Positions 2,967 to 31,929 of a stretch of 31,929 bases of DNA are shown here, in pieces (the stretch's first letter is position 1; each line of letters begins with the position of its first letter). The stretch spans positions 1 to 31,929 of the IMG/VR virus record IMGVR_UViG_3300022818_000255; one strand, given 5' to 3'. The stretch comes from a virus. The position numbers and the translations under genes are program-made. The notes below the pieces were generated by a model. That model worked only from the letters and a program-made list of their open reading frames with translations. It was not told where the DNA came from and did not search any database.

Positions 2967-3509
2967 ATGAATAAAGAAGAAACTAAAGAGTATATGAAAA
3001 GATGGTTTAAGGATCATCCTGAAAATATCAAGAGAAGTCAGAAAATATATTATAAAAATAACCGAGAAAAAAGATTAAATAATTCTAAACAATGGGCAAT
3101 AAATAACTATGAAAGAGTAAAAGAATTGGCAAGAGATTGGCGCAGGGGGAAATGGGAAACAGACTTGAAATATAAATTAACACTTACAATATTTACGGGG
3201 ATAAATGTATCAACTAAAAAGAATATAAAGGGCAGATTATGGGAAAGTTTAGTTGGTTATACCTTAAACGATTTAATTAAAAGATTAAAATCTACAATCC
3301 CCGATGGCTACACTTGGGGTGATTATATAAATGGTAAATTACAGATTGATCATATTGTACCAGTATCATCTTTTAATTATACAAAGCCAGAACATTTAAA
3401 TTTTAAAGAATGCTGGGGTTTAGATAATTTAAGATTATTACCTGAACAAGATAATAAAATGAAGAGAACTTCATTAATTAAACCATTCCAATCAATTTTA
3501 GAACTATAA
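2967..3509 (+). CDS. HNH endonuclease (homing-type, freestanding)
   Basis: 180 residues. The N-terminal half is a basic, lysine/asparagine-rich helical region. The C-terminal half holds the HNH/beta-beta-alpha-metal core: LQIDHIVPV with D128-H129, then CWGLDNLRLLPEQDN with N154 and N163. This layout is typical of phage HNH nickases that spread as selfish genes. It has its own GGAG site and lies between a terminator and a gene-free gap (3510-3578), consistent with insertion as a unit. A role in packaging or DNA processing cannot be excluded. Confidence 0.8.
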   Translation: MNKEETKEYMKRWFKDHPENIKRSQKIYYKNNREKRLNNSKQWAINNYERVKELARDWRRGKWETDLKYKLTLTIFTGINVSTKKNIKGRLWESLVGYTLNDLIKRLKSTIPDGYTWGDYINGKLQIDHIVPVSSFNYTKPEHLNFKECWGLDNLRLLPEQDNKMKRTSLIKPFQSILEL

Positions 3510-8762: not shown

Positions 8763-9026
8763 TTGGAACCAATAAATCCGAATAAATTACTTGAAGAATA
8801 TAAAGACTATATTGAATTTCAAGCAGTCTTTTATTCTAAAAAAGGTTTAGATTACCACGATGTATATAATCAATGCTTCGTCTACCTATATGAAAATAAT
8901 CTGCAATATCCCTCAAAAATAGACCTCAAGAAATGTGTAAATAGTAAGTTAAGAACTTACTACAACCACGAAATAAAAGAAAGGCATTTAAGTTATGGAA
9001 CAAACCCAGAAGATATTTTTATATGA
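8763..9026 (+). CDS. Sigma-70-like region 2 protein, first part of a split late sigma factor
   Basis: 87 residues from a TTG start with AGGGAG 8 bases upstream. The sequence (LLEEYKDYIEFQAVFYSKKG, then YHDVYNQCFVYLYENN) resembles region 2 of small extracytoplasmic-type sigma factors, which binds core polymerase and the -10 element. The frame ends at TGA (9024-9026) just after PEDIF. The next frame continues the expected sigma sequence (IFLYDALATLERRE) and carries region 4, so a +1 shift or a two-subunit factor such as Bacillus RsoA/SigO is suggested. Immediately before the terminase genes, it is well placed to activate late transcription. Confidence 0.6.
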   Translation: MEPINPNKLLEEYKDYIEFQAVFYSKKGLDYHDVYNQCFVYLYENNLQYPSKIDLKKCVNSKLRTYYNHEIKERHLSYGTNPEDIFI

Positions 9027-9216
9027 CGCTTTAGCTACCCTTGAACGAAGGGAACAAAGTATCTTAAAACTATTCTATTTCGCTGGGTTTAGTGAAGATG
9101 AAATTGCCGACTCCTATCACATTACCCAACAGCGGGTAAATCAAATAAAAAGTAGAGCTTTAGAAAAATGCAAATTGCAATTAAACAAGAAGAAACTATG
9201 TGCGATTACTGTATGA
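8995..9216 (+). CDS. Sigma-70-like region 4 protein, second part of a split late sigma factor
   Basis: 73 residues if started at the ATG at 8995, which lacks a clear ribosome site (only AAAGG some ten bases upstream). Residues ~11-60 form a textbook sigma region 4: LATLERREQSILKLFYFAGFSEDEIA, then HITQQRVNQIKSRALEKC as the -35 recognition helix-turn-helix. It overlaps the region 2 frame by 32 bases and lies in the +1 frame. It may be made as a frameshift fusion of about 155 residues, as a separate subunit, or be split by a sequencing error. It overlaps the zinc-ribbon ORF at 9198. Confidence 0.7.
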   Translation: MEQTQKIFLYDALATLERREQSILKLFYFAGFSEDEIADSYHITQQRVNQIKSRALEKCKLQLNKKKLCAITV

Positions 9217-9823: not shown

Positions 9824-11195
9824 CCTCATAGTTAAATCTCAACTAAATTATACCCCATACGACTGGGAAATCCCCATGATAGTAGCCTTTGAGCATGGGA
9901 AGGAAGTTTGGAAGACCATACATCGTAGAGGCGGTAAAGACTTATTTGACCTGAAAGAGATACTATTACCAGAAGCATTTGAGAAGCCTGGATCATATCA
10001 ATACATTTGGCCATCACTAAAACAAGGTAGAGATAGCTTCTGGGAAGGTAAAGACGAAGAAGGCAGGGATATAATGGATTACTATATCCCTCATGAAATG
10101 ATATTACATCCTGATAACGCAGATATGAAACTGACAGTAAGGGCAATAGGCGGCACTTCAACCATACAAGTCTTTGGTACTAATGACGGACAATATATCG
10201 CACTACGTGGTAAACCTTCTAATGGGGCAGTATTTAGTGAGTTTGCCTTCCAGGATCCACGAGGCGATGAGATGATTTCCCCAATGATTAGAAAGACAGG
10301 CGGTTGGAGATCATATAACAGCACACCTAACGGGAATAACCACTACAAAAAGCGTTGGGAATTAGCTAAAGTTAATCCTAACTGCTTCCCCTTATTAGCT
10401 ACAGTAGAAGACACTTACGATCATAACCACAATAGATTAATAACTGAAGCAGATATAGAAAGAGAACGGGCAGACGGCAAGTCAGAAGACTTCATACAAC
10501 AGGAGTATTATTGCAGTTTTAACCAGGGTATTGAAGGCACTTACGTAGGCAGGCAAATCCAACAGGCCAGAAATGACGGTAGGATATTAGCAGTCCCTTA
10601 CGATTCATCTTTCTCTGTAGATACTTACTGGGATTTAGGCGTAGGCGACGCTATGTCAATATGGTTTGTCCAACAAGTAGGCAAAGAGATAAGGTTTATT
10701 GATTATAAAGAACAGACTGGGTCAACTTTCTCTTACTGGGCAAGGGTATTTAAAGACACTGGCTACTTGTTTGGAAGACACTTTGCACCATTTGATATAC
10801 AGAATAGAGAAATGGTAGGTAAAGAAGAAGCCGCTAAATCACGTTTAGAGTGGGCTAAAGAGGTAGGTATAAAGTTCTCTATTACACCTGATGCATCTTT
10901 TGAAAATAGTTGTGATGCTATAAGAGGTATTTTAGGCTTATGCTGTTTCGATGAAACAAAATGTGCAGTAGGTATAAAACATCTTGAGCAGTGGGGTCGT
11001 GTCTGGAATAAGTTAGAGCAGAGATATACCGACTTTGAGAAGAGGGATCCACACACCCACGCAGGAGCAGCAGCACGTTATATGGCTATCAACATAAGGC
11101 AAGCTCAAGGTTACGATGTCACTAAGAGCAGAGAAGAATTAAGGTTTAAGCAGAACTACCGGAGAGATTCAGGTGGTAGTGCGATGAGCGTATAG
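9819..11195 (+). CDS. terL: Terminase large subunit (packaging ATPase and nuclease)
   Basis: 439 residues from the first ATG (9876), but the frame is open back to 9798 and upstream codons encode NYTPYDWEIP, the expected adenine-binding Q-motif region, so a non-ATG start is likely. ATT at 9819 has GAGGAAGCGGAAG just ahead and gives 458 residues. Numbered from M at 9876: Walker A-like HRRGGKD (16-22), Walker B-like AVFSEFAF (118-125), and coupling motif YNSTPNG near 145. The RNase H-type nuclease begins around DTYWDLGVGD and ends with DPHTHAGAAARY. It pumps DNA into the procapsid at the portal and cuts the concatemer. Confidence 0.9.
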   Translation: MSLIVKSQLNYTPYDWEIPMIVAFEHGKEVWKTIHRRGGKDLFDLKEILLPEAFEKPGSYQYIWPSLKQGRDSFWEGKDEEGRDIMDYYIPHEMILHPDNADMKLTVRAIGGTSTIQVFGTNDGQYIALRGKPSNGAVFSEFAFQDPRGDEMISPMIRKTGGWRSYNSTPNGNNHYKKRWELAKVNPNCFPLLATVEDTYDHNHNRLITEADIERERADGKSEDFIQQEYYCSFNQGIEGTYVGRQIQQARNDGRILAVPYDSSFSVDTYWDLGVGDAMSIWFVQQVGKEIRFIDYKEQTGSTFSYWARVFKDTGYLFGRHFAPFDIQNREMVGKEEAAKSRLEWAKEVGIKFSITPDASFENSCDAIRGILGLCCFDETKCAVGIKHLEQWGRVWNKLEQRYTDFEKRDPHTHAGAAARYMAINIRQAQGYDVTKSREELRFKQNYRRDSGGSAMSV

Positions 11196-11552: not shown

Positions 11553-13358
11553 ATGAATGAAACACAAAGCACACGAATAGAGAAAATGAAAGATATGTGG
11601 AACGAGGCTCTTAAAGGGCAAGCCGAGTATATTCAAAGAGCTATAACTAATTATGGCTTTTATGAGGGTGGCGATAAGCAATGGGATGCACAAGACATTA
11701 CTATCCTCAACCAGAAGAAGCGTATGCACTTATCACTTAATATTATCTTCCCGATTATAAACCTACTTACTGGGTACGAACGCCAGAACCGTATGGACAT
11801 TAAATGCTATCCCAGAAAAGGCGGGATTGGTATAGTAGCAGACCTGATGACCGAATTAGCTAAGCATGTGGAAGATATGTCTAATGGCTTATATGTTCGT
11901 TCAAACACTTTTTATGACGGGATAATCAGCAGTAAAGGCTTTATTAGTTTAGATATTAAATACGATGAAGATCCTTTTAACGGCGAAATAACAGTAGATA
12001 GCGACGATCCCTTTGACATCTACGAAGACCCGAATAACAAGAAATATGACCTTAATAATGGCAAATATGTCATCCATTCCTACTGGGGAGATAAAGAGCA
12101 GATTAAACTTATCTACCCTAAAAGCGAAAAAGAACTGGATGAGTTAAAATATGACGATTTAGATAACCTTGATAGTGAGAGGCTTCCTGGAAGTGATAAG
12201 AGTCCGGATAAATTTAAGGCTCGTATTAGAGAAACATGGTGGAAGTCTTACGAGAAAGCTATCTATTTAATTAATACGCAAACTATGGACAACAAGCGAG
12301 TTCATAACACCAAGAAAGATTTATTAAAAGTCTTACTTGAGAAAGACCGCAGAATGTCCGAAGCAGAAGGTAGGCAACCAATGTTAGCAGTTAGGGAAAG
12401 TGTTATACCGGTCCTAAACTGCACTACCACTATAGGGAATATTGAATTAGAACACGTAGAAAGACCATTCGGCGAGATGTCCAAGTTCCCCATTATTAGA
12501 TTTGTTCCTTACTTTGTCAAAGGTAACTTCTTAGGGGTAGTGGATAACCTGATTGACGCACAGAAAGAAAAGAATAAAAGACGTTCGCAGGCTTTAAACC
12601 TTTTAAATAGTTCCGTTAATAGTGGATTCTTCAACAAGAAAGAAGGCGGAGCTAACCTTGATGATTTAGTAGAACAAGCTTCCAGCCCTGCACCAGTTAT
12701 AGAATACGATACTGTTAAACCAGAGAAGATAGAGCCTACCCAGTTATCAGTAGGACATATCACCCTTGAGAAGTTATCCGAAGAAGACGCTTCTAAAATA
12801 TCCTCCGTTAATCTCAATATGCAGGCACAGGGCCCGGCAAGTGAATCAGGTGTTAAAGATAGACAGAGGATTAATCAAGGTTTAATAGGCAGTGAAATAA
12901 TCTTTGACAATATGAAACTCACTCACAAGATATACTCCGAAACCATAATCGAGATGATTAGGTTTGGTAATACCTTCTCAACACAAGAGATAATGTCGAT
13001 AGCAAGTGAAGCTAAAATGGAACAAAATGTTGACCAACTGTTAGAAGCGATCAGAAGCAGGGGAATAGGTAAGTATGGGATACAAATATCCAGCTCACCT
13101 ACTAACCCAACCATAAGATTTGCTAACTTTGAAATGTTATTAGATATGGCCAAGATTTACGGAGAAATAATCCCCCCGGACATTGTGATAGAAGCCTCAG
13201 ACGTGAATAAGAAAGATGAGATTATAGAACGCTTACAACAGCAACAGCAAATGCAGGCACAAATGGCGCAGCAACAAATGCAACAGCAGGCTCAATCACA
13301 GGCACAGCAACCTCAAGCTAAACAACCTCAACAAAGAAAACAATTAGTTAAAAGATAA
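11553..13358 (+). CDS. Portal protein (P22 type)
   Basis: 601 residues. The N-terminal ~200 residues match the P22-type portal family: AEYIQRAITNYGFYEGGDKQWD, LNIIFPIINLLTGYERQNR, then DPFDIYEDPN and YVIHSYW. Twelve copies form the ring through which DNA enters and leaves the head, on which terminase and later the tail adaptor dock. The last ~40 residues are almost pure glutamine/alanine (from about 560), a disordered or helical-barrel-like tail. AGGAG lies upstream of the ATG. The family fits the P22-like tail genes further down. Confidence 0.85.
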   Translation: MNETQSTRIEKMKDMWNEALKGQAEYIQRAITNYGFYEGGDKQWDAQDITILNQKKRMHLSLNIIFPIINLLTGYERQNRMDIKCYPRKGGIGIVADLMTELAKHVEDMSNGLYVRSNTFYDGIISSKGFISLDIKYDEDPFNGEITVDSDDPFDIYEDPNNKKYDLNNGKYVIHSYWGDKEQIKLIYPKSEKELDELKYDDLDNLDSERLPGSDKSPDKFKARIRETWWKSYEKAIYLINTQTMDNKRVHNTKKDLLKVLLEKDRRMSEAEGRQPMLAVRESVIPVLNCTTTIGNIELEHVERPFGEMSKFPIIRFVPYFVKGNFLGVVDNLIDAQKEKNKRRSQALNLLNSSVNSGFFNKKEGGANLDDLVEQASSPAPVIEYDTVKPEKIEPTQLSVGHITLEKLSEEDASKISSVNLNMQAQGPASESGVKDRQRINQGLIGSEIIFDNMKLTHKIYSETIIEMIRFGNTFSTQEIMSIASEAKMEQNVDQLLEAIRSRGIGKYGIQISSSPTNPTIRFANFEMLLDMAKIYGEIIPPDIVIEASDVNKKDEIIERLQQQQQMQAQMAQQQMQQQAQSQAQQPQAKQPQQRKQLVKR

Positions 13359-14634: not shown

Positions 14635-15450
14635 ATGAGTATTTTAAACAGCATTCCTGAATTATGGAATGTAGCAATGATGCACGAAATGGAAAGAACA
14701 CAAGTCTATGGCAAAATCGCACGATGTGTTATAGACGCACCTATAAAGAAAATGGGCGATACCGTTCATTTTAGCGGAATAGGTGATATTACCATAGGAA
14801 CTTACACTGGGGCAGATATAACCATGCAAGCTTTATCTGACGTCGGGTCAACTATGGTAATAGATAAAGGCGATTACTTTGACTTTATAGTAGATGATGT
14901 AGACGCACTACAATCTAATGCCGCACTAATGAAAGAAGCAACCCACAGAGCTGCTTATAAGATGAAAGACGCTGCTGATGACAATATCTACGACGCAATG
15001 GTAGCTGGAGCAGGTGTAACTGGTCCCACTGAAGGCACTGTTGATGTAACTGCTGTTATAAGTAACATAGCTGAAATGGATTTAAAACTTAAAGAAGCAG
15101 AAATCCCTGAAGAAGAAAGATGGATAGTATTTCCTCATTGGGTCGGAACTAAACTCTTACTCGCTGGGATTTATCAGGCTCAGGATTTAAAGGGTAATAT
15201 CAATGGTTTTATTGGTAGCCAATTAGGTATAGATATGTATGAGTCTGGTGTTAACGCTGCCACTGTAGTTTTAGCTGGTTCTTATGGTTGCACTGCTTTT
15301 GCAGAACAAATTGTAAACACTGTAGCCTTCTCACCTGAAAAGAGATTTGGTGATGGTTTAAAAGGACTTCACGTCTACGGAGTAAAAGTAGTTAAACCTA
15401 ACGAATTAGTATTAGGAAGCTTCACTGAAGCTGTAGAAACTTTAATATAA
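14635..15450 (+). CDS. Major capsid protein (probable HK97-fold)
   Basis: 271 residues. The N-terminal helix (SILNSIPELWNVAMMHEMERTQVYGKI), the beta-rich MGDTVHFSGIGDITIGTY, and the following IDKGDYFDFIVDDVDALQSNAALMKEATHRAAYKM pattern (about 80-115) match many phage coat proteins. The C-terminal part has VVLAGSYGCTAFAEQIV and a final GVKVVKPNELVLGSFTEA strand pair. Place in order (portal, scaffold, coat) supports the call. It is small for the family, so extra stabilisation by a decoration protein, perhaps the one encoded at 15546, is plausible. Confidence 0.8.
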   Translation: MSILNSIPELWNVAMMHEMERTQVYGKIARCVIDAPIKKMGDTVHFSGIGDITIGTYTGADITMQALSDVGSTMVIDKGDYFDFIVDDVDALQSNAALMKEATHRAAYKMKDAADDNIYDAMVAGAGVTGPTEGTVDVTAVISNIAEMDLKLKEAEIPEEERWIVFPHWVGTKLLLAGIYQAQDLKGNINGFIGSQLGIDMYESGVNAATVVLAGSYGCTAFAEQIVNTVAFSPEKRFGDGLKGLHVYGVKVVKPNELVLGSFTEAVETLI

Positions 15451-20085: not shown

Positions 20086-21579
20086 ATGGCTGATTTATTA
20101 TATTTATACCCTAATTCTGATGTAGTAAATGGCTTAAGAGGAACGTTTGCTGACATTGATGACCCAGCTGCTACCCCTGACGATGATACTACTTATGTGG
20201 AACAGTTATCCTGTCCTAATTTTACGGCAGCTGCTTTATACGGTTTGCCTAATAGCGTAGATTTGGGCCCGATAGATAAAATAACTGTCTATTATCGTTG
20301 GAGAAGTACAGGTACAAATACTGCTGGATGTTGGTGCCAAATAAAAACACACGGGGCTAATTATTATGTGGAGGAATCTGTAACCCTTTCACTCACTTAT
20401 CATGTTTTGTCTAAGCAATGGACGACTAATCCTTTTACAGGTGCGGCTTGGACTTGGGCAGAAATTAATGATTTACAATTATATATCATTAGCGCAGGAA
20501 ATCAATCAGACCCACACTCCGACGAGACTCAAAGCCGAGGCAGATGCACACAAACCTATGTTGTAGCAGAAGGCACTTGGTATGTTGTACCTACTGACCA
20601 TACTGACGCTGCTACAAGTATAGACCACGTATCCGGCATTTTAAATGGTAATCTAACTGCTACTGGTGGGATGAATTGCACGGTTAGAGGTTTTGAATGG
20701 AAAAAAGGTGTAGCTGGAGACGTAACTACCGTTCCCGAAACAGGAGATTTTGGAACGGGGGTATTCCATTATGATTTAATCGGGTTAGAAAATTATACCG
20801 AATATTACTTTAGGGCTTATGCGACCAATAGTATAGGAACTACTTATGGAGAATGGCTTACCTTTACCACTTTAAGGACTTATCCGACAGTAACTATTCA
20901 AGCTGCGACAGATTTAGCAACAACTACCATAACCACTAATGGAAATATCACTGCTTTAGGTGGGGAGAATGCAACTATTGAAGGCTTTGATTATGGTTTA
21001 ACTAAAATAGCCACTTGGAATCAGCACTCTCACGGCTCTTTTACAATAGGGGCTTTTCATGAACATCTAACAGGTTTATCTGCTAATACTGAGTATTGGA
21101 TTAGGGCTTATGCGACAAACTCAATAGGAACTAGGTATACCGATTATATACAATTTCAGACTGCGGCGGTAGGAGTTATACCGACTGGCACAAAGTTAGA
21201 TATATGTGGAGATTATTCGGGCTATACCTTCCAGCTAAATGCATCTTTAAATGACGATGGTATTGCCTATGAAGGTTATTTTGTTATTAATTCAGACTTG
21301 TCAGATAATCAAGGACTCTCTTATTACAAGAGACTTCTGGATATACATTTATACTTTAATAAAGAAACTTCGGGGTCAGCAAGTGTTTCTGTTAAGCGGG
21401 ATAATGAAACCACGTGGTTACTATTAGGTTCAGTAGTTTTAACTGGGGATGAGGATATTTTAGTGAAACATCTCGCAGTTGACGTGCGAGCTAAAACATT
21501 CCTTTTTAAAATATCAGCCACTAATCAATTTGAATTTTTGGGGATGATTTTAGAGTTTATTGTGAGTGGAGATAGATAA
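20086..21579 (+). CDS. Tail fibre / receptor-binding protein with fibronectin-like repeats
   Basis: 497 residues. An N-terminal ~170-residue beta domain (LYPNSDVVNGLRGTFADIDD; WRSTGTNTAGC) probably anchors the protein to the virion. Two fibronectin III-like repeats follow, with the near-identical cores YYFRAYATNSIGTTYGEW (about 245) and YWIRAYATNSIGTRYTDY (about 340). A C-terminal ~120-residue beta domain is the likely tip. Fibronectin repeats in phage structural proteins are thought to bind cell-surface sugars. GAGGAAGG precedes the ATG. Gene order after the nozzle supports a fibre role. Confidence 0.7.
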   Translation: MADLLYLYPNSDVVNGLRGTFADIDDPAATPDDDTTYVEQLSCPNFTAAALYGLPNSVDLGPIDKITVYYRWRSTGTNTAGCWCQIKTHGANYYVEESVTLSLTYHVLSKQWTTNPFTGAAWTWAEINDLQLYIISAGNQSDPHSDETQSRGRCTQTYVVAEGTWYVVPTDHTDAATSIDHVSGILNGNLTATGGMNCTVRGFEWKKGVAGDVTTVPETGDFGTGVFHYDLIGLENYTEYYFRAYATNSIGTTYGEWLTFTTLRTYPTVTIQAATDLATTTITTNGNITALGGENATIEGFDYGLTKIATWNQHSHGSFTIGAFHEHLTGLSANTEYWIRAYATNSIGTRYTDYIQFQTAAVGVIPTGTKLDICGDYSGYTFQLNASLNDDGIAYEGYFVINSDLSDNQGLSYYKRLLDIHLYFNKETSGSASVSVKRDNETTWLLLGSVVLTGDEDILVKHLAVDVRAKTFLFKISATNQFEFLGMILEFIVSGDR

Positions 21580-21580
21580 T

Positions 21581-22195
21581 ATGGCAATAAATAAAACCGT
21601 TTGGAATAAAGATAAAACAAATATTTATTCAGAAGAAGCATTAAAAAAAATGAGTATTGCTAATAAAGGGAAACACCTTTCAATAAAAACAGAATTTAAA
21701 AAAGGTATGATCCCGTGGAATAAGGATAAAACTTCTACAGAAGAAACAAGACAAAAAATGAGCAAAGCTCTTAAAGGGAAGAAATTACCTCCACGATCTG
21801 AAGAACATAGAAGAAAAATAAGCGAATATATGAAAGGTAAACATGCTTCGGAAAATACAAAGCAAAAAATAAGTGAATCTCTAAAAGGTAAATGTGGAGA
21901 AAAAAGCCGAAATTGGAAAGGTGGCCTTACTCCTTTAGCACTTACCATAAGACATTCATTCGAATATCGTCAATGGCGTTCAGATATTTTTACGAAAGAC
22001 AACTTCATCTGTCAAAAATGTGGTCAATTAGGTGGAAGACTAAATGCTCACCATATAAAACCATTTGCTTCTATCCTTCAATATTACGAAATTACCACTT
22101 TAGAAGAATCACTAGAATGTGATGAACTTTGGAATATAAACAACGGAATTACTTTATGTAAAGAATGTCATAGAACAATAGGGGGTGATCGTTAA
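21581..22195 (+). CDS. NUMOD3/HNH homing endonuclease, freestanding
   Basis: 204 residues from the ATG at 21581. Residues ~15-105 contain four NUMOD3-type DNA-binding motifs recurring every 20-28 residues (LKKMSIANKGKH, TRQKMSKALKGKK, HRRKISEYMKGKH, TKQKISESLKGKC). The C-terminus is an HNH nuclease: C144/C147 knuckle, NAHHIKPF with H157-H158, N187-N188 and C193/C196-H197. It sits between the fibre gene and a coiled-coil gene with tiny gaps, as typical selfish homing genes do. It probably nicks or cuts the same site in related phages lacking it. Confidence 0.9.
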   Translation: MAINKTVWNKDKTNIYSEEALKKMSIANKGKHLSIKTEFKKGMIPWNKDKTSTEETRQKMSKALKGKKLPPRSEEHRRKISEYMKGKHASENTKQKISESLKGKCGEKSRNWKGGLTPLALTIRHSFEYRQWRSDIFTKDNFICQKCGQLGGRLNAHHIKPFASILQYYEITTLEESLECDELWNINNGITLCKECHRTIGGDR

Positions 22196-22371
22196 TGGCA
22201 GGATTACGTGTGAGCAAGAACGTTATCTTACCCCGCACTGATAAAGTTAAAGACCCCGAAACTAAGAGGGTTATCGATGAGTTATTAAGGAAGTTACAGG
22301 AGATGAATCAAGTTTACCATAACGATATTACTTATTTAGAATCAAGAGTTTACAGCCTTGAACATCCATAG
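22195..22371 (+). CDS. Small coiled-coil virion protein (58 residues)
   Basis: The ATG overlaps the homing endonuclease stop (TAATG), with GGGGGTGAT upstream. The sequence begins MAGLRVSKNVILPRTDKV and then forms one long heptad-type helix (VIDELLRKLQEMNQVYHNDITYLESRVYSLE). This layout suits a trimeric or dimeric connector of fibre or tail parts. The family is not recognised. Confidence 0.5.
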   Translation: MAGLRVSKNVILPRTDKVKDPETKRVIDELLRKLQEMNQVYHNDITYLESRVYSLEHP

Positions 22372-22379
22372 GAGGGTTA

Positions 22380-22850
22380 ATGGAGAAAAAGGATATTATA
22401 CCTAATCAAATATATTACACTACTAATCTTGAGATTTTAGCAGAAGTAGTTGAAAAAAACGAGAGAATAAAGAATAGTGACTTTTTAAAAAGCGAGTTTT
22501 TAAAATCATTAATTTCATATGCTATTAATAAAAATGGCATAGTGTTGGTTAGTTTTAACGAAGAAAAAAAACTTAATGGATGTGTAGTGTTATCTCGTCA
22601 CTTAGATGAACAAGGAGAGTATATTTTTTTTGATTTCCGTTGGCTCGACCCTGCTAATTATAAAGAGTTAATGCACAAATACTATAACGAAGTAATTGGC
22701 ACAGCTAAAGTGAGAGGTATAAAACGAATACAAGGGACTGCTGGAAGATGTTTTAGGGTAGCAGAAAAATATTACCATGCTCACGAAATTAGTAGGAATT
22801 TTGAAATAAATGTAGAGGAGGCAGAAATGAAAGATGATAACGAAGCATAA
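22380..22850 (+). CDS. GNAT-like acyltransferase
   Basis: 156 residues. The pattern fits the GNAT acyltransferase fold: N-terminal helices, strand pair GIVLVSFNEEKKLNGCVVLS (about 52-72), strand YIFFDFRWLDP, helix YKELMHKYYNEVIGTAKVRGI, and final strands with KRIQGTAGR and EKYYHAHEISRNFEI. The usual glycine-rich pyrophosphate loop is not obvious, so the donor may not be ordinary acetyl-CoA. GNAT-like proteins often lie before internal virion genes in podoviruses. The direct overlap with an acyl carrier protein gene suggests acyl-ACP as donor. GGAGGG precedes the ATG. Confidence 0.6.
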   Translation: MEKKDIIPNQIYYTTNLEILAEVVEKNERIKNSDFLKSEFLKSLISYAINKNGIVLVSFNEEKKLNGCVVLSRHLDEQGEYIFFDFRWLDPANYKELMHKYYNEVIGTAKVRGIKRIQGTAGRCFRVAEKYYHAHEISRNFEINVEEAEMKDDNEA

Positions 22851-23052
22851 AATACTTAAAATTCTTGCTGACTATTCAAAGAAAGATATAAAAAACATTA
22901 ATGAAAAGTCTTCTCTTGCTGATGATTTAGGATTAGATTCATTAGATAAAGTTGAATTAACTATGATATTCGAGGAGGAACTTAACATAAAAATTGATGA
23001 CGGAGAGATAAATAATGTGGGGGATATATTTTCATATTTAGAAAAGAGGTAA
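22834..23052 (+). CDS. Acyl carrier protein
   Basis: 72 residues. The phosphopantetheine attachment motif is intact: LADDLGLDSLDKVELTMIFE with Ser36 at the same position as in E. coli AcpP, followed by EEELNIKIDD and a last helix GDIFSYLEK. Length, acidity and three-helix layout are those of a stand-alone carrier protein of fatty-acid type. The ATG overlaps the last 17 bases of the acyltransferase gene, with AGGAGG 13 bases upstream, so the two are translated together. It needs a host 4'-phosphopantetheinyl transferase, as none is visible here. Confidence 0.9.
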   Translation: MITKHKILKILADYSKKDIKNINEKSSLADDLGLDSLDKVELTMIFEEELNIKIDDGEINNVGDIFSYLEKR

Positions 23053-23060
23053 TACAAATT

Positions 23061-23969
23061 ATGTTAAAACGTGTATTGATTAATATTTTACTATTCCCTG
23101 TCTTTGGATCTTTTGCTGGATTATGCGAAGCACCAAAACCAACCCTCCTTGAAATACCAGGAACTGAATCAACGACAGAAGGCGGGACTAACCAAGCAAC
23201 ACAATTTTTAATGAACTTAATGAATGGAGCCGCACCATTACAGACTACTCCTGATGCTATGAAAGTCCCCTTACAACAAGTAGCAGGGATGGGTGCTAAT
23301 GAACAGACAGTACAGGGTTTATTAGCTAAATATCTTGGAACTAACGCAACAGACAGCGAAGCCTACAAATTAGGTATGGGTGAACTAACTAAAACTTTCG
23401 GTGATACTTATGATCCCCAGACATCAGACTTTTGGAAGGGTTATCGGGATACTTCACAAACCGAACAAGATGCAGGCGTATCAGATATCAGGCGTAGAGG
23501 ACAGTTAGGCGGCGGGTTATATGCTGAACCTAATCAAAGAGCTGAAGCTGATTATACCAAAGAAATGGGTTCTAACCGTTTAGGGATGTTAGGTAGTCTA
23601 TATGAGAACGAAAGAAATAGAAAATCTAATGCTGTAAATACGGCTTTAGGTTATGCAGGGTTTGAAGAAGCAGGGGCAACTAATAGAATAAATACCGGTG
23701 CAACAGTAGGAGCTATTCCTAGAACTATTCAAAACCAGAAATATGAAGCGGCTTTTAATCAAGCTTCAGGGCAGGCTCAATCTGATTATAATACCGCTCA
23801 ACAGACTTCGCAGAATGCTTATAATCAACAGCTCTTCCCGTACACTGCACAAGCTCCGATAGCACAGACACTTATGCCTCAGTGGAGCGTACCTGGGAAT
23901 GATAGTGGCGGAGGAATTATGGGAACAATAGGGTCGATAGCAACTGGTTTAATGGGTTGCAAATCCTAA
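23061..23969 (+). CDS. DNA-ejection (internal virion) protein with signal-like N-terminus
   Basis: 302 residues. The body resembles P22 gp7/T7 gp14-type ejection proteins: disordered, Q/N/A/G-rich, with DIRRRGQLGGGLYAEPNQRAE (about 140-160) and tail GGGIMGTIGSIATGLMGC. Unusually, it begins with a basic start and hydrophobic segment (LKRVLINILLFPVFGSFAG) followed by LCEAPKP, which resembles a lipoprotein signal with Cys at about 22; the lipobox AGLC is not standard. Ejection proteins enter the host envelope and form the channel for DNA. The gene follows the acyl carrier protein by 8 bases. Confidence 0.6.
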   Translation: MLKRVLINILLFPVFGSFAGLCEAPKPTLLEIPGTESTTEGGTNQATQFLMNLMNGAAPLQTTPDAMKVPLQQVAGMGANEQTVQGLLAKYLGTNATDSEAYKLGMGELTKTFGDTYDPQTSDFWKGYRDTSQTEQDAGVSDIRRRGQLGGGLYAEPNQRAEADYTKEMGSNRLGMLGSLYENERNRKSNAVNTALGYAGFEEAGATNRINTGATVGAIPRTIQNQKYEAAFNQASGQAQSDYNTAQQTSQNAYNQQLFPYTAQAPIAQTLMPQWSVPGNDSGGGIMGTIGSIATGLMGCKS

Positions 23970-23982
23970 AGGAGATAATGAT

Positions 23983-25653
23983 ATGAGTCCACTACAAGTT
24001 TTACAAATGCCCAACTACAATTCTACCTGGAGCCAATTAAGCGTCTTTACTGATAAGTTAGTAGGTGCTTATAAGCAGGCACAGCAGAATAAATGGGATA
24101 ACGAATTAAATGGTTTGATTATTTCTGCTATTGATAAAGCCGGTGATAAAAACGAATCAGATGACCTTATAACTAAATTAAATTCCCCTTCCCCTACAAT
24201 AGATATTGAAGGTGCAACAAAAGCCGCTAATAGTGTAATGGGTATGTTACAGAAAAAAGAAGTAATGACTGGTGGTATAACTAAACCTGCTCCAGAACCT
24301 AATTATGGTTCAGGTAATATTGATTTAAACAATAGACCTGTCTATAAAGTACCTGGCAAAGATGAAGTTAGAACAGTTAATTCAATGTCATTTGAAGAAA
24401 ATGGGAAAGAAATTTTAGTCTCTACTATTATTAATGGACAACAAGTATCTAATGAGGAAGCAATTAACCATTATCATCAAACAGGAGAATTTTTAGGTAA
24501 GTTTGATTCAATAGATGAAGCAAATAAGTATGCTGAACAATTACATTTAGACCAACAAAAACAATATGCTACACCACCAAAAACTGAACTTCTACCTGAC
24601 CAAAAAGAATGGAATGAAGTATATAAAATATTCTCTGGTATGTCCGGTGAAGTTACTAATTGGGATGAACCGATGAACTTTATTAAGCAGAGGTTAGACT
24701 CTGGCAGACAGATAGGTTCACAAGCACAAGCTTTTTTAAATATGATATTAGGGCAAAAACAAAAAGACCCAAGAGATGAAATAGCTAAGAATATTGATTT
24801 GACTAATGCATATATGAAGGCAATGAATCCTGAAACTAAAGAACCTACTGATTATGAAAAATATTTAATGGATAAAGAAGGGTTTTTACAATATAAAAAA
24901 GATGTAGCAGAAGCAGGGAGAGAACCAGAAAAACCAACCGAATGGGATAAGAAACTTGATATTATTATGCAACTTAATCCTTCAAATGATGAATTAAAGA
25001 AGTTATTAGGTATCTATATTGCACCAGAAAACCAATCTGATTTTGATAAGAAATACAATCTTATTATGAAAACTAATCCTACCCCTAACGAGTTAAAGAA
25101 GTTTTTAGGAACTTATATTGAACCAAAGACTGGCACTGGGGCTAAAACACCAACTTCCCCATTCCAAATGTGGCTTCTACAGCATCCTGATGGAACTTAT
25201 GATGAATGGATAAAAGATAGTAAGACAAGCACTACAAAAACACTTAATATTGATAAAATCCTTTTTGGTAATACTGGGATAATCCCTAAATATATACAAA
25301 CCGACATAGAAAGTTCAGGCACGATAGCAGAAGAATATAAAGAAACAGTTAGAAAGAATTTTAAGTTAAAAGAATCTTCTTTATCTGCTGATGAATTAAC
25401 AGACATTCTGGCTTATTTTCAACAGATAGAATTTGACCCCTACTATATAGAACCAGAACCTGCCCCTACCCCAGAACCAGTCAAAACGAATAAGGTAGGA
25501 GAATTTTGGAAGAAGTTGACTACCCCAATAACAGAAACCCCTATGTATTTAGGTAAAAAGGAAGACCAATATGGTTATGTTTTAGGCGAATTAAAAGATA
25601 TTGATGGTAAAAAATATAAGTATGCGGGGAATGATCAATGGCAACCACTTTAA
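23983..25653 (+). CDS. Internal virion / ejection protein
   Basis: 556 residues. The N-terminal helical region is followed by a domain at about 117-192 (NRPVYKVPGKDEVRTVNSMSF, then INHYHQTGEFLGKFDSIDEA) found repeatedly in phage internal virion proteins and large ejected polyproteins. Residues ~322-385 carry two copies of a 33-residue unit. The C-terminal part is proline-rich (EPEPAPTPEPVKTNK) and ends in a short strand pair. It probably leaves the head with DNA at infection. AAGGAGATAATGAT precedes the ATG. Confidence 0.65.
   Translation: MSPLQVLQMPNYNSTWSQLSVFTDKLVGAYKQAQQNKWDNELNGLIISAIDKAGDKNESDDLITKLNSPSPTIDIEGATKAANSVMGMLQKKEVMTGGITKPAPEPNYGSGNIDLNNRPVYKVPGKDEVRTVNSMSFEENGKEILVSTIINGQQVSNEEAINHYHQTGEFLGKFDSIDEANKYAEQLHLDQQKQYATPPKTELLPDQKEWNEVYKIFSGMSGEVTNWDEPMNFIKQRLDSGRQIGSQAQAFLNMILGQKQKDPRDEIAKNIDLTNAYMKAMNPETKEPTDYEKYLMDKEGFLQYKKDVAEAGREPEKPTEWDKKLDIIMQLNPSNDELKKLLGIYIAPENQSDFDKKYNLIMKTNPTPNELKKFLGTYIEPKTGTGAKTPTSPFQMWLLQHPDGTYDEWIKDSKTSTTKTLNIDKILFGNTGIIPKYIQTDIESSGTIAEEYKETVRKNFKLKESSLSADELTDILAYFQQIEFDPYYIEPEPAPTPEPVKTNKVGEFWKKLTTPITETPMYLGKKEDQYGYVLGELKDIDGKKYKYAGNDQWQPL
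24946..25122 (+). repeat. Two tandem 99-base units inside the ejection-protein gene
   Basis: Units starting at 24946 and 25045 encode DKKLDIIMQLNPSNDELKKL and DKKYNLIMKTNPTPNELKKF, each followed by LGIYI/LGTYI. The period is 99 bases (33 residues) and DNA identity is clear but imperfect, which indicates an old in-frame duplication. Both repeats are helical and charged. Confidence 0.7.
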
Positions 25654-28600
25654 TCACAAGTGAAGAATTGTTTGGTAAAAAGAAAAACGAAGGGTTAATA
25701 TCTTCTGCTGACTTATTTAAAACAAAACCTATAGTTAGCGAGACTATTGAAGAACCTGAACCTATTACTACTCCTACCCCAACTATACCTAAATTAGAAG
25801 ATATAACTCAAAAACAGACTGCTTTAACTAAAATAGAGGAAAATTTTAGCCAGTTGGATACTTCTATCGAAACCGATTATAAACTCTATCAGGATTACAG
25901 CAAGCAGTTAGACGATCTTGAAACACAGATACAGGAAGCACCGGAAGAATTGCAGTTTAAATTAACTAATGACTATAACAGGATACAAGGCTTACATAAT
26001 ACTTTAGTGCCTAAAATCAAGGCTAATACTGCTCAATATGAACAGACTAAAAAAGAATATGACTTAGTGAGAGATAGTTTTGAGAAGGATGTAAATATTT
26101 ATAACAAAGATATAGAAGCAAAAGAGGCAACAGCATATAACCGATACAAAAATCTATTTAAGGCGTATAAACAATTTGGTGGAGTATCCGGAGAAAGTGA
26201 AGTATCTACACAGAAATCATTTGATGTATCTGAAGGCATTCCGCAAGAGACTACCTTAAAACAATACACTCCCCCCAAAGAGAATTGGTGGGATAAAGTT
26301 AAAAATATATTTACTGCTAAACCAGATGAATTAAAAGCTAAAGCACAGGTTAGCTATAATATCGCCAGGCAGACAGGTGTTCCTATTAATGATGTTAACC
26401 AAAATCTTGATAAGATAACAAAAGAAATGGGGATTAGAGGAATACCCACTACTGAAGAAATGATTAGCGTTGCAATGATATTAAACCCCTTTACTGCTAC
26501 CTTAATTGGCACTCATCCTATCAGTCTTGTTACTGGAGCAGCTAAATATATGGGAATGGGTGAAGCAGTCAATGCTATTGTATCTAAAGCAAAAGGGATA
26601 GATTATAAGTTTGGAGCAGGTAAGAGTATTAAAGACCTTCTACCAGAAGATACTAACCAAATAGCTAAAGATACAGTAGATATATTAGAAATGATAGGTA
26701 AGGGTTGGGTTATTGCTAAAACTGATAAAAATGTATCTAAGTTATGGGATATGTTTACTAAAAAAACTACTACCGAATATAGCTTACCTGAAAAGATGTA
26801 TCTTAGTGCTGATAAGATAAGGGAGATATATAGAAAAGGTGGAATACCTGAATCCGAATACCCTCAATTTGAAGCTGATATATTAGCAAAAGTGCAAGGG
26901 AATAAAGCAGATATTGTTAGAACTGCATTTAGAGAAGGCGGAGTAGATATTGAGATCCCTGCTACCGAAATGACGACCTTTGCAGATAGACCTTGGTTTG
27001 CTAAGATTAAAGAAGCCTTTGGGATTAAACCTATCTCTAATACTATTATAAATTATGGTGGTAAACCAGTAGCCACTACTGCGGTTAAAGGTTTATTAGA
27101 GGGAGTAACTGGTATCCCTGAAACTCCAGTGGTAACACCTGAAATATCTACAATAAAACCTGAATTACCAAAAGTAACCTCTACGGAAATAAACATTGGT
27201 AAATTAGATGAAACCCTAAAAACGACATTAGAATCCCCTGTTACTGATGAACAAATATTAGAAAGGCAGGGAGAACTTGTTACTAAAGCCCCTACTACTA
27301 TTGAGGAAGCCAGAGAGATATTAAAGCAAGACCCGATAAAACCTGCTCAACCGAAAGAGATATTAGCTAAACAAATGGTAGAAAAGAAAGTATCTATTAG
27401 CGATATAGAAGCGGTAAAGGGTGAAAAGATAGATGTTAATAAGCCAAAGGATATTCTTATTGCTTTAAGAGATATTAAGAAGGTAGAAGTAGTTACAGAA
27501 GCCACTTCAAAGACTGCTATCCCCAAAGGACTTGAAGGGTTGGCAGAGGAAGCGAAGAAGGCTAAAGATGTAGATGATTTTGTAAAGGCGAATGTAAATG
27601 ATTATGGTATAAACAAAGAAGTCCCACTTATTAAAAATATAATGAATGGACAAAAGATAAAAGAAGGTTCTTATAGAATTGGGAAAGTATCTGATATTGT
27701 AAATGATACTGGTTTATTAAAAGCACTTAACAGTGAAGTTAAAAATATTGAAGTAGTATTAATTAATGACGAAAGAATTGATTTTGCTAATAAAGCAAGA
27801 TTTATAGGACAAAATGAGGATAAAGTATTTCCTATAGATATACCACCAACAAATAAAGGTGTTCAAATTACAACTACAGACCCTTTAAAACCTGTAATAG
27901 CAATTAATATTAATGGTTTTAATCAGAAAAACTTTTCCCAAGATTTATATAAAACTCTTACCCATGAATTAGGTCATGCAGAAAGAAATATTAAAAATAG
28001 ACCCATAGATGATGTATCAGAAAAAACAGCAGATAAGTTTATGGATTTTTATGCAAATAATAGAAAACAACAACTAACCGACTTCTACACCCAAGCCACA
28101 GGCAAGGCAGGGGCGACTACCGAGAAAACTAAAGAAGTGGAATATGTTTACCACGGAACAGATCCCTCTAATCTTGAATCAATTGCAAAGGATGGTTTAA
28201 AAACTCCTGCAGAAAGAGGAGTGTTTGATAGAGAAGATTATACACAATTTTCAAAAACAGAAAAGTATTCTAAGGATTTTATGGAAATTCAAGGTAAAAT
28301 TCCACTTATGTTAAGAGTTAAAAATGATGGTAGTAACCCTAATTTATATACTCCAGAAAATTATCCATTAAGTGTTTTATCATCAAAACGAGTACCACCA
28401 GAATCTATTGAGATGAAAATGCCAGATGGTTCATGGAAACCTATTACCGAAGTAGTTAAGGAAACTACCCCAGCTACCGAGAAACCTGCGGGGGTTGAAA
28501 CACCTGCAGAAGCGGAATTGACAAAATATATTAAAAAATATGGATACAAAGATAAAGATTACAAGATTGTTGATTACCTAATAGCAAAGATAAAAACAAT

Positions 28601-29423
28601 TACAGGTGGAGAAAAACCGGAATTAGTTAAAAAATATACAGAAATGGTTAAATCTGGAGTTAATTTTGCTCCTATTATGACGGAAGATGGTTATATACTT
28701 GATGGAGGACACCGATTACAAGCCTATAAAGCAGCAGGTAAAGAAACTATTCCTGCTTTAGTACCTATAGGTCAAGGATCTGGAAAAGTGGTTAATTTTT
28801 CCGAATTCTATAAGGTCACGACTGAACCAGAAGGGACGGGGGGGATAGGCAAGAGTGGGTTACCAGAAGCAGGTAAAGGCAAGGTAAGCGGAGTAGCACA
28901 GCGTATCAATGCCACTGCTATTGAAATGGACTTAACTAAAGGATTTGGACACTTAGCTGAGTTTACACCTGGAGTAATTAAAGAACAGGCTAAAATATTC
29001 TCTGACCTGATAAATAATGATATTGACCAGGTAAGAAGTATGGTTAGAGGCGAAACTGCTATACCTGCCAATACCAGAGGCTCAGTATTGGTAACTGCAA
29101 TGAATAATTATGCTGTAAAAACTGCTAATGGCGAAATATTAAATGAATTAGCCAGCTCACCCCTTACATCTGAATTATCAGCCGCAGGTTCAGAGTTGAG
29201 TTTATCAAGGGGTAATGAAGGCGAGATAAATGCGGTTAAAGTGATACAGGATATTAATAAAATAGCAGAGGGAAAAGCTACAAAAGGGGAACAGGGTAAA
29301 TCATATAACGATGTAAAAAACGAAGCGATTACTGAAACTAAGACCAAAGTTACTGAACAGGTTAATAAAGCAAATAACAAGTATTCCTGGACGGAATTTA
29401 TTCGATCCATTCAATGTAAGTAA
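25638..29423 (+). CDS. Polyvalent ejected protein: HExxH peptidase, ADP-ribosyltransferase-like and ParB-like domains
   Basis: 1261 residues. Order: disordered N-terminus, coiled coil (about 45-175), a weakly hydrophobic glycine-rich region (about 275-310), a long linker, a zinc peptidase motif HELGH (776-780, with E782), a region starting VYHGTDPSNLESIAKDGL (837 on) that resembles ADP-ribosyltransferase folds, and a ParB/sulfiredoxin-like motif GYILDGGHRLQAYKAAG (about 1018-1034). This is the pattern of phage 'polyvalent proteins', injected with DNA and thought to disarm host defences. GGGG lies ahead of the ATG, which overlaps the previous gene by 16 bases. The ADP-ribosyltransferase assignment is the least certain. 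Confidence 0.7.
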   Translation: MATTLITSEELFGKKKNEGLISSADLFKTKPIVSETIEEPEPITTPTPTIPKLEDITQKQTALTKIEENFSQLDTSIETDYKLYQDYSKQLDDLETQIQEAPEELQFKLTNDYNRIQGLHNTLVPKIKANTAQYEQTKKEYDLVRDSFEKDVNIYNKDIEAKEATAYNRYKNLFKAYKQFGGVSGESEVSTQKSFDVSEGIPQETTLKQYTPPKENWWDKVKNIFTAKPDELKAKAQVSYNIARQTGVPINDVNQNLDKITKEMGIRGIPTTEEMISVAMILNPFTATLIGTHPISLVTGAAKYMGMGEAVNAIVSKAKGIDYKFGAGKSIKDLLPEDTNQIAKDTVDILEMIGKGWVIAKTDKNVSKLWDMFTKKTTTEYSLPEKMYLSADKIREIYRKGGIPESEYPQFEADILAKVQGNKADIVRTAFREGGVDIEIPATEMTTFADRPWFAKIKEAFGIKPISNTIINYGGKPVATTAVKGLLEGVTGIPETPVVTPEISTIKPELPKVTSTEINIGKLDETLKTTLESPVTDEQILERQGELVTKAPTTIEEAREILKQDPIKPAQPKEILAKQMVEKKVSISDIEAVKGEKIDVNKPKDILIALRDIKKVEVVTEATSKTAIPKGLEGLAEEAKKAKDVDDFVKANVNDYGINKEVPLIKNIMNGQKIKEGSYRIGKVSDIVNDTGLLKALNSEVKNIEVVLINDERIDFANKARFIGQNEDKVFPIDIPPTNKGVQITTTDPLKPVIAININGFNQKNFSQDLYKTLTHELGHAERNIKNRPIDDVSEKTADKFMDFYANNRKQQLTDFYTQATGKAGATTEKTKEVEYVYHGTDPSNLESIAKDGLKTPAERGVFDREDYTQFSKTEKYSKDFMEIQGKIPLMLRVKNDGSNPNLYTPENYPLSVLSSKRVPPESIEMKMPDGSWKPITEVVKETTPATEKPAGVETPAEAELTKYIKKYGYKDKDYKIVDYLIAKIKTITGGEKPELVKKYTEMVKSGVNFAPIMTEDGYILDGGHRLQAYKAAGKETIPALVPIGQGSGKVVNFSEFYKVTTEPEGTGGIGKSGLPEAGKGKVSGVAQRINATAIEMDLTKGFGHLAEFTPGVIKEQAKIFSDLINNDIDQVRSMVRGETAIPANTRGSVLVTAMNNYAVKTANGEILNELASSPLTSELSAAGSELSLSRGNEGEINAVKVIQDINKIAEGKATKGEQGKSYNDVKNEAITETKTKVTEQVNKANNKYSWTEFIRSIQCK

Positions 29424-31521: not shown

Positions 31522-31929
31522 TTATCCTTTAACCATAACGGTATCGCCTGAGGAAGTAAAAATGTAACCACCTACGGTTGCAGTGTCAAGCCAAGTTCCA
31601 CTCCCATAGATACCACTGGAATCGATAGTTCCTTCAAAATAAATAACATTAGTAACTGTTTGACCGTAAATGTTTATGTAACTGCCATTTACAGTTGCGG
31701 TAATAGTTGAGCCGTTAAATGTTCCATAACCTGTGTTCCAGTTAATACTTCCATCAACAACATAAAAATTATTAATAGTAAGAGACCCTGAATTATCAAC
31801 AATATAGCATTTAGCAGTGGTGAACCCTGAACCATCGTAATTGGTCATTGTCCAATTACCAGTTATGCCGGTTGACGGAATTACACTACCACAACCTGAT
31901 AAAAATAGAACTAATAGCAAGAATGTAAT
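31522..31929 (-). CDS. Lipoprotein, cut by the window end
   Basis: 135 residues are visible. The frame is open to the window edge, so the start may lie beyond 31929; the first in-frame start codon seen is TTG at 31920. The visible N-terminus is FLLLVLFLSGCGS, a clear lipoprotein signal with lipobox LSGC. The mature part is beta-rich (GITGNWTMTNYDGSG, then VIYFEGTIDSSGIYGSGTW), similar in style to small bacterial lipocalin-like lipoproteins. It is probably expressed from the prophage and may block superinfection or alter the host surface. Confidence 0.65.
   Translation of the reverse strand: MTFLLLVLFLSGCGSVIPSTGITGNWTMTNYDGSGFTTAKCYIVDNSGSLTINNFYVVDGSINWNTGYGTFNGSTITATVNGSYINIYGQTVTNVIYFEGTIDSSGIYGSGTWLDTATVGGYIFTSSGDTVMVKG

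Follow-up and report, generated by a model that had tools for sequence, protein, structure and literature searches.

Acyl carrier proteins (ACPs) are already known from phages. PHROGs includes two families of phage ACPs, phrog_5934 and phrog_4154, which it places in the class 'moron, auxiliary metabolic gene and host takeover'. Published examples, described as auxiliary metabolic genes, come from Erythrobacter phage vB_EliS_R6L (gp32, whose 'function remains unclear'; PMC5463345), Alteromonas podovirus R22Y (gp30; PMC11705849), Vibrio phage R16F (PMC10152775), and Rhodobacteraceae prophages (PMC8224337). Our own searches extend this picture: 39 phage records matched E. coli AcpP by tblastn, some being questionable or cellular DNA, and one peptide pattern combined with tblastn yielded 416 IMG/VR contigs with an ACP, some of which will be cellular. 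Such ACPs turn up repeatedly in phages unrelated to one another, and the genes immediately beside them are mixed; the 25 commonest families among 87 neighbors at 55 loci include RusA, endolysins, epimerases, a helicase, and some fatty-acid genes. In R6L the neighbor is RusA and in phiXF1 it is gyrase genes. The idea of a common partner gene for phage ACPs was rejected because the neighbor families are heterogeneous. In Pseudomonas phage HRDY3, two ACP-containing genes lie in tandem (L082:3289-4258), and the product of the first is extended by roughly 150 residues at its N terminus.

The locus described here has such an ACP in a setting that resembles, in gene order, the internal virion cassette typified by T7 genes 13-14-15-16 and by the GNAT of roseophage SIO1 (PMC6775973). 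The window, i.e., the whole stretch of DNA that was analyzed, comprises the whole of an IMG/VR virus record, 31,929 bases long, that is possibly a fragment. Its head module is of the P22/podovirus type, with the terminase at 9876-11195, the portal at 11553-13358 (phrog_156), and the major head protein at 14635-15450 (phrog_267), followed by tail genes and then by large genes in a T7 internal-virion-like order. Within this late cluster, all on the plus strand, are a NUMOD3/HNH homing endonuclease gene (21566..22195), which is recognized by Pfam and PHROG and represents an accessory insertion that is missing at that place in the relatives L041-L044; a small conserved gene, as judged by comparison with relatives, between the tail gene and the GNAT-fold gene (22195..22371, 58 aa read from 22195); the gene for a predicted GNAT-fold protein, in the position of T7 gene 13 (22380..22850); the ACP gene (22834..23052); and candidates for gp14-like (23061..23969), gp15-like (23983..25653), and gp16-like (25638..29423, 1261 aa) proteins. 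The last three are assigned by position and gene order; the gp14-like gene is conserved in the relatives, the gp15-like gene in the nearer ones, and the large gp16-like protein partially matches proteins of 2200 aa from L041 and L044. In the latter two (L041:13305-20000 and L044:11645-18301), a single protein of about 2200 residues stands where the window has a 1261-residue ORF and then a 645-residue ORF. The order of tail, GNAT-fold/gp13-like, gp14-like, gp15-like, and gp16-like genes is shared with the T7-type cassettes, whereas the T7 cassette has no ACP. The initial annotation called the gene downstream of the ACP an ejection-protein gene. Its place in the slot of T7 gene 14 and the gene order agree with this, but Pfam and PHROG searches of the protein gave zero family matches, and the label is a purely positional one; the N terminus of the protein is hydrophobic.

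That 22834-23052 encodes an ACP is confirmed far beyond chance. The ORF translates into the 72 residues MITKHKILKILADYSKKDIKNINEKSSLADDLGLDSLDKVELTMIFEEELNIKIDDGEINNVGDIFSYLEKR, with Ser36 as originally described. This serine lies in the motif GLDSLD, a GxDSL-type motif at the start of helix II (residues 36-50 in the model), and from its sequence context is expected to be the 4'-phosphopantetheine site. The PF00550 profile matches at 35.3 bits (E 1.4e-8) against a curated cut-off of 20.8 bits, the phrog_5934 'acyl carrier protein' family at E 2.6e-12, and the top PDB sequence match is the Thermotoga ACP 6lvt (E 6e-12). An AF2 model built with an alignment of 41 ACPs from the loci has a pLDDT of 87.7, and its best Foldseek matches are all ACPs, with a TM of about 0.8-0.9 to the query and an rmsd of about 1-2 A; ACP-MukBEF and ACP-desulfurase structures are among the matches. 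Residues identical to E. coli AcpP comprise D35, S36, L37, D38, V40, E41, M44, E47, E48, I54, and D56. Relative to the ACPs of bacterial type II fatty acid synthesis (AcpP; nearest solved structures, Thermotoga maritima 6lvt/6lvu), the fold, Ser36, and the checked helix II contact residues are alike, whereas the phage protein differs in a 3-residue deletion that removes helix III, in its net charge, and in that fatty-acid genes are not adjacent.

These departures qualify the original description of the gene as encoding a complete carrier core with an acidic region. D56 to V62 spans 7 residues in the phage ACP versus 10 in all 40 of the compared ACPs, and the model has helices I, II, and IV with helix III absent. 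At a net charge of -5 it is also the least acidic of the set, the other 40 ranging from -7 to -23 (E. coli, -15). The word complete overstates the case. Helix III is a short, ordinary element that does not define the ACP fold. Because the PF00550 profile, the motif, and the overall fold all agree, family membership stands, and the protein is a diverged, shortened member of the family rather than a textbook ACP. The loss of helix III together with the lower acidity could impair recognition by AcpS or Fab proteins, and the product may not be a working host-type ACP. It resembles the described phage ACPs (phrog_5934/phrog_4154; R6L gp32, Olleya phage Harreka_1, HRDY3, R22Y gp30) in standing alone, in matching PF00550, and in the DSL serine, and an annotated phage PPTase beside the ACP is likewise lacking in the regions read. 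In contrast to the window ACP, with its shortened helix III and its place between gp13-like and gp14-like late genes, those ACPs lie, in the phages read, mostly beside DNA-metabolism or unknown genes. Thus, the view that such genes are rarely described may hold for this position but not for phage ACPs generally, given the two PHROG families, the several isolates, and the IMG/VR contigs mentioned above.

The expression context proposed at the outset also finds support. The start of the ACP gene shares 17 nt with the 3' end of the upstream GNAT ORF, and the gap from the ACP stop to the ATG of the gp14-like gene is 8 nt; scanning for promoters and terminators revealed no clear excess, nor any convincing promoter or terminator belonging to the ACP gene itself. 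The gene is therefore probably cotranscribed with the late genes, and its location within the late virion operon is supported. Its GC content of 26.9% is at the low end for structural genes (1.7% of 216-nt stretches are as low), the GNAT gene is GC-poor too (30.8%), and the GC3 of the ACP gene is similar to that of phage genes; the low GC fits acquisition but is weak evidence that proves little. Close relatives of this ACP were not found. The window ACP had no tblastn match at E 0.01 among 50,697 phage records, with partial ACP matches appearing only at E 10; the closest ACPs, from IMG/VR, share 46-47% identity, and a donor search in GTDB genomes produced no more than four generic ACPs or ACP domains at 31-45% identity. 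A 48-row tree, following up the suggestion of an ACP phylogeny, left the window gene unplaced on an isolated long branch.

The upstream neighbor (22380-22850), initially described as acyltransferase-like, deserves that description at the level of fold. A Pfam search of the protein gave no match and the PHROG matches were weak, but the AF2 model (16 homologues; pLDDT 86.5, pTM 0.79) has the GNAT order of strands and helices. The best PDB matches of the model are GNAT acetyltransferases (E from 6e-6), and a viral fold library returned phage GNATs together with T7-type 'host specificity protein A' entries. Comparison of the family profile with T7 gp13 by hhalign gave a probability of 0.1%, i.e., no sequence homology was found. 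We accordingly rejected the family as a sequence-level homologue of gp13, the T7-type proteins having come from the fold search only, and the link is one of fold and position. The protein sits at the place of T7 gp13, before the gp14-like gene, and on its modeled fold is a candidate member of the gp13 family. The CoA loop Q/RxxGxG/A after strand 4 was not seen when the alignment was read by eye against the strand 4/helix 3 boundary of the model (window WLDPANYKELMHK; relatives WTDGKDLKLGLK), which makes catalysis doubtful.

The relatives of the window are most informative about the place of the ACP. They were collected via the portal, the GNAT family alignment, and the gp14-like family; the GNAT protein alone had no match in viral contigs, whereas the alignment query did find homologues, and a DNA-level search for the cluster in phage records returned nothing. 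In 16 relative records, among which G002-G004 look near-identical, the GNAT-fold and gp14-like genes adjoin without an ACP, with an overlap of at most 17 nt or a gap of at most 58 nt. In a 17th, L048, an HNH endonuclease gene (L048:6437-7060), homologous to window 2967-3509, lies exactly between the GNAT-fold gene and the start of the gp14-like gene, which is the slot of the ACP in the window. In L071, an HNH insertion separates the gp14-like gene from the large gene next to it. Hence, none of these 17 related loci has an ACP at this place, and a PF00550 search of 41 relative records (27 portal relatives and 14 further ones, many of them fragments) found none. The ACP-less relatives keep the same tail, gp13-like, gp14-like, and gp15-like genes. 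Since these flanking virion genes occur without the ACP, it is not a general need of the virion module, and there is no support for the initial proposal that virion assembly or entry requires acyl chains. Nor does position prove a virion role, because HNH endonucleases have landed in the same operon region in both the window and its relatives. In this podovirus group, the gp13-like/gp14-like junction is open to foreign genes. The ACP lacks the conservation with the virion module that would mark a virion or ejection component, and its sporadic presence and phrog_5934 match are those of a phage ACP moron or auxiliary metabolic gene. We conclude that it is most likely a phage ACP moron at an unusual place, and the junction comparison warns against inferring function from position alone.

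As to its role, we consider it reasonably probable that this lone ACP is an acquired accessory gene in a podovirus-type late operon, presumably primed by the host AcpS and acting in the host acyl-ACP network. Its insertion would have separated the conserved gp13-like GNAT gene from the gp14-like gene, and translation of the ACP would presumably be coupled to that of the overlapped GNAT gene. Neither PPTase nor Fab/fatty-acid enzyme families were recognized among the window proteins scanned with Pfam, so, by established ACP biochemistry, the host AcpS would have to prime the apo-ACP on Ser36, and the host would also supply the acyl partners. As the window and many of the relative records are fragments, a PPTase may nevertheless be encoded elsewhere in the genome. 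The primed protein would then enter the host acyl-ACP network and either supplement or compete with host AcpP in late infection, with a possible effect on lipid synthesis in either direction. If the ACP is functional, it would be a further example of a phage interfering with the acyl-ACP metabolism of its host, here from a late operon.

The main functional rival to action within the host acyl-ACP network starts from the fact that bacterial ACP is a known protein-binding hub. In apo or holo form, the phage protein might bind host ACP partners, such as fatty-acid enzymes, SpoT, MukB, or IscS-type complexes, and alter host physiology without carrying acyl chains. The retention of the helix II recognition surface with the loss of helix III, as well as the ACP-MukBEF and ACP-desulfurase structures among the Foldseek matches, would suit such a decoy. 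However, a pure decoy would have no need of Ser36 and its surroundings, all of which are retained here, and we regard this role as rather unlikely. Ranked after it, and also unlikely, is the possibility that the gene is a recent passenger with little or no function, decaying in an insertion-prone slot. The HNH gene in the same slot of L048, the HNH insertions nearby in the window and L071, the unique deletion, and the isolated branch in the tree all fit this, but the ORF is open and in frame with an intact catalytic motif, and its GC3 is like that of phage genes, as expected after some residence under selection.

The overlap of the ACP and GNAT genes raises a further alternative to a role in the host network, namely, that acyl-ACP donates a chain which the GNAT-fold protein transfers to an internal virion protein, for example the gp14-like protein, aiding its insertion into the host membrane. 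Some GNAT-fold enzymes, of the LuxI and HlyC/ApxC types, do use acyl-ACP donors, and both the predicted fold of the neighbor and the hydrophobic N terminus of the gp14-like protein are in keeping with this. Against it, the GNAT and gp14-like genes are kept in the 16 junctions without an ACP, though host ACP could serve there; homologues of neither neighbor were found within the fetched flanks of the best 80 of the 416 ACP-bearing viral loci; with the CoA loop not seen in the sequence, catalysis is doubtful; and the T7 gp13 counterpart has been treated as a morphogenesis protein (PMC6775973). We therefore judge this partnership quite improbable, and give still less credence to its stronger form, in which the two proteins are an acyl-ACP-dependent pair that lipidates an internal virion protein and membrane penetration during DNA ejection is itself acyl dependent. 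Should the ACP indeed act for the GNAT-fold protein, it would provide a means to probe the unsettled role of T7 gp13-type GNAT folds. An assembly chimera or misjoined host DNA is hardly credible: the ACP is unique to this record, and searching for exact DNA matches to its core turned up neither a second copy nor another contig with the same sequence, but the genes to the left and right of the 219-nt ORF are complete and keep the conserved order, other host genes are absent, and two clean joins about 200 bases apart would be required.

Elsewhere in the window, a Gp3-like recombination directionality factor-like protein is encoded at 1607-2887 (PF18897, E 9.5e-48), with no integrase recognized in the window. 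At 8763-9216, two overlapping ORFs resemble one small sigma-like factor in two pieces, the second of which (8995-9216) matches Sigma70 region 4; this is possibly a frameshift or a two-gene arrangement. At the end of the record, a minus-strand ORF (31522-31920) without a Pfam match has a lipoprotein-like signal at its start (LFLSGCGS) and is a possible moron.
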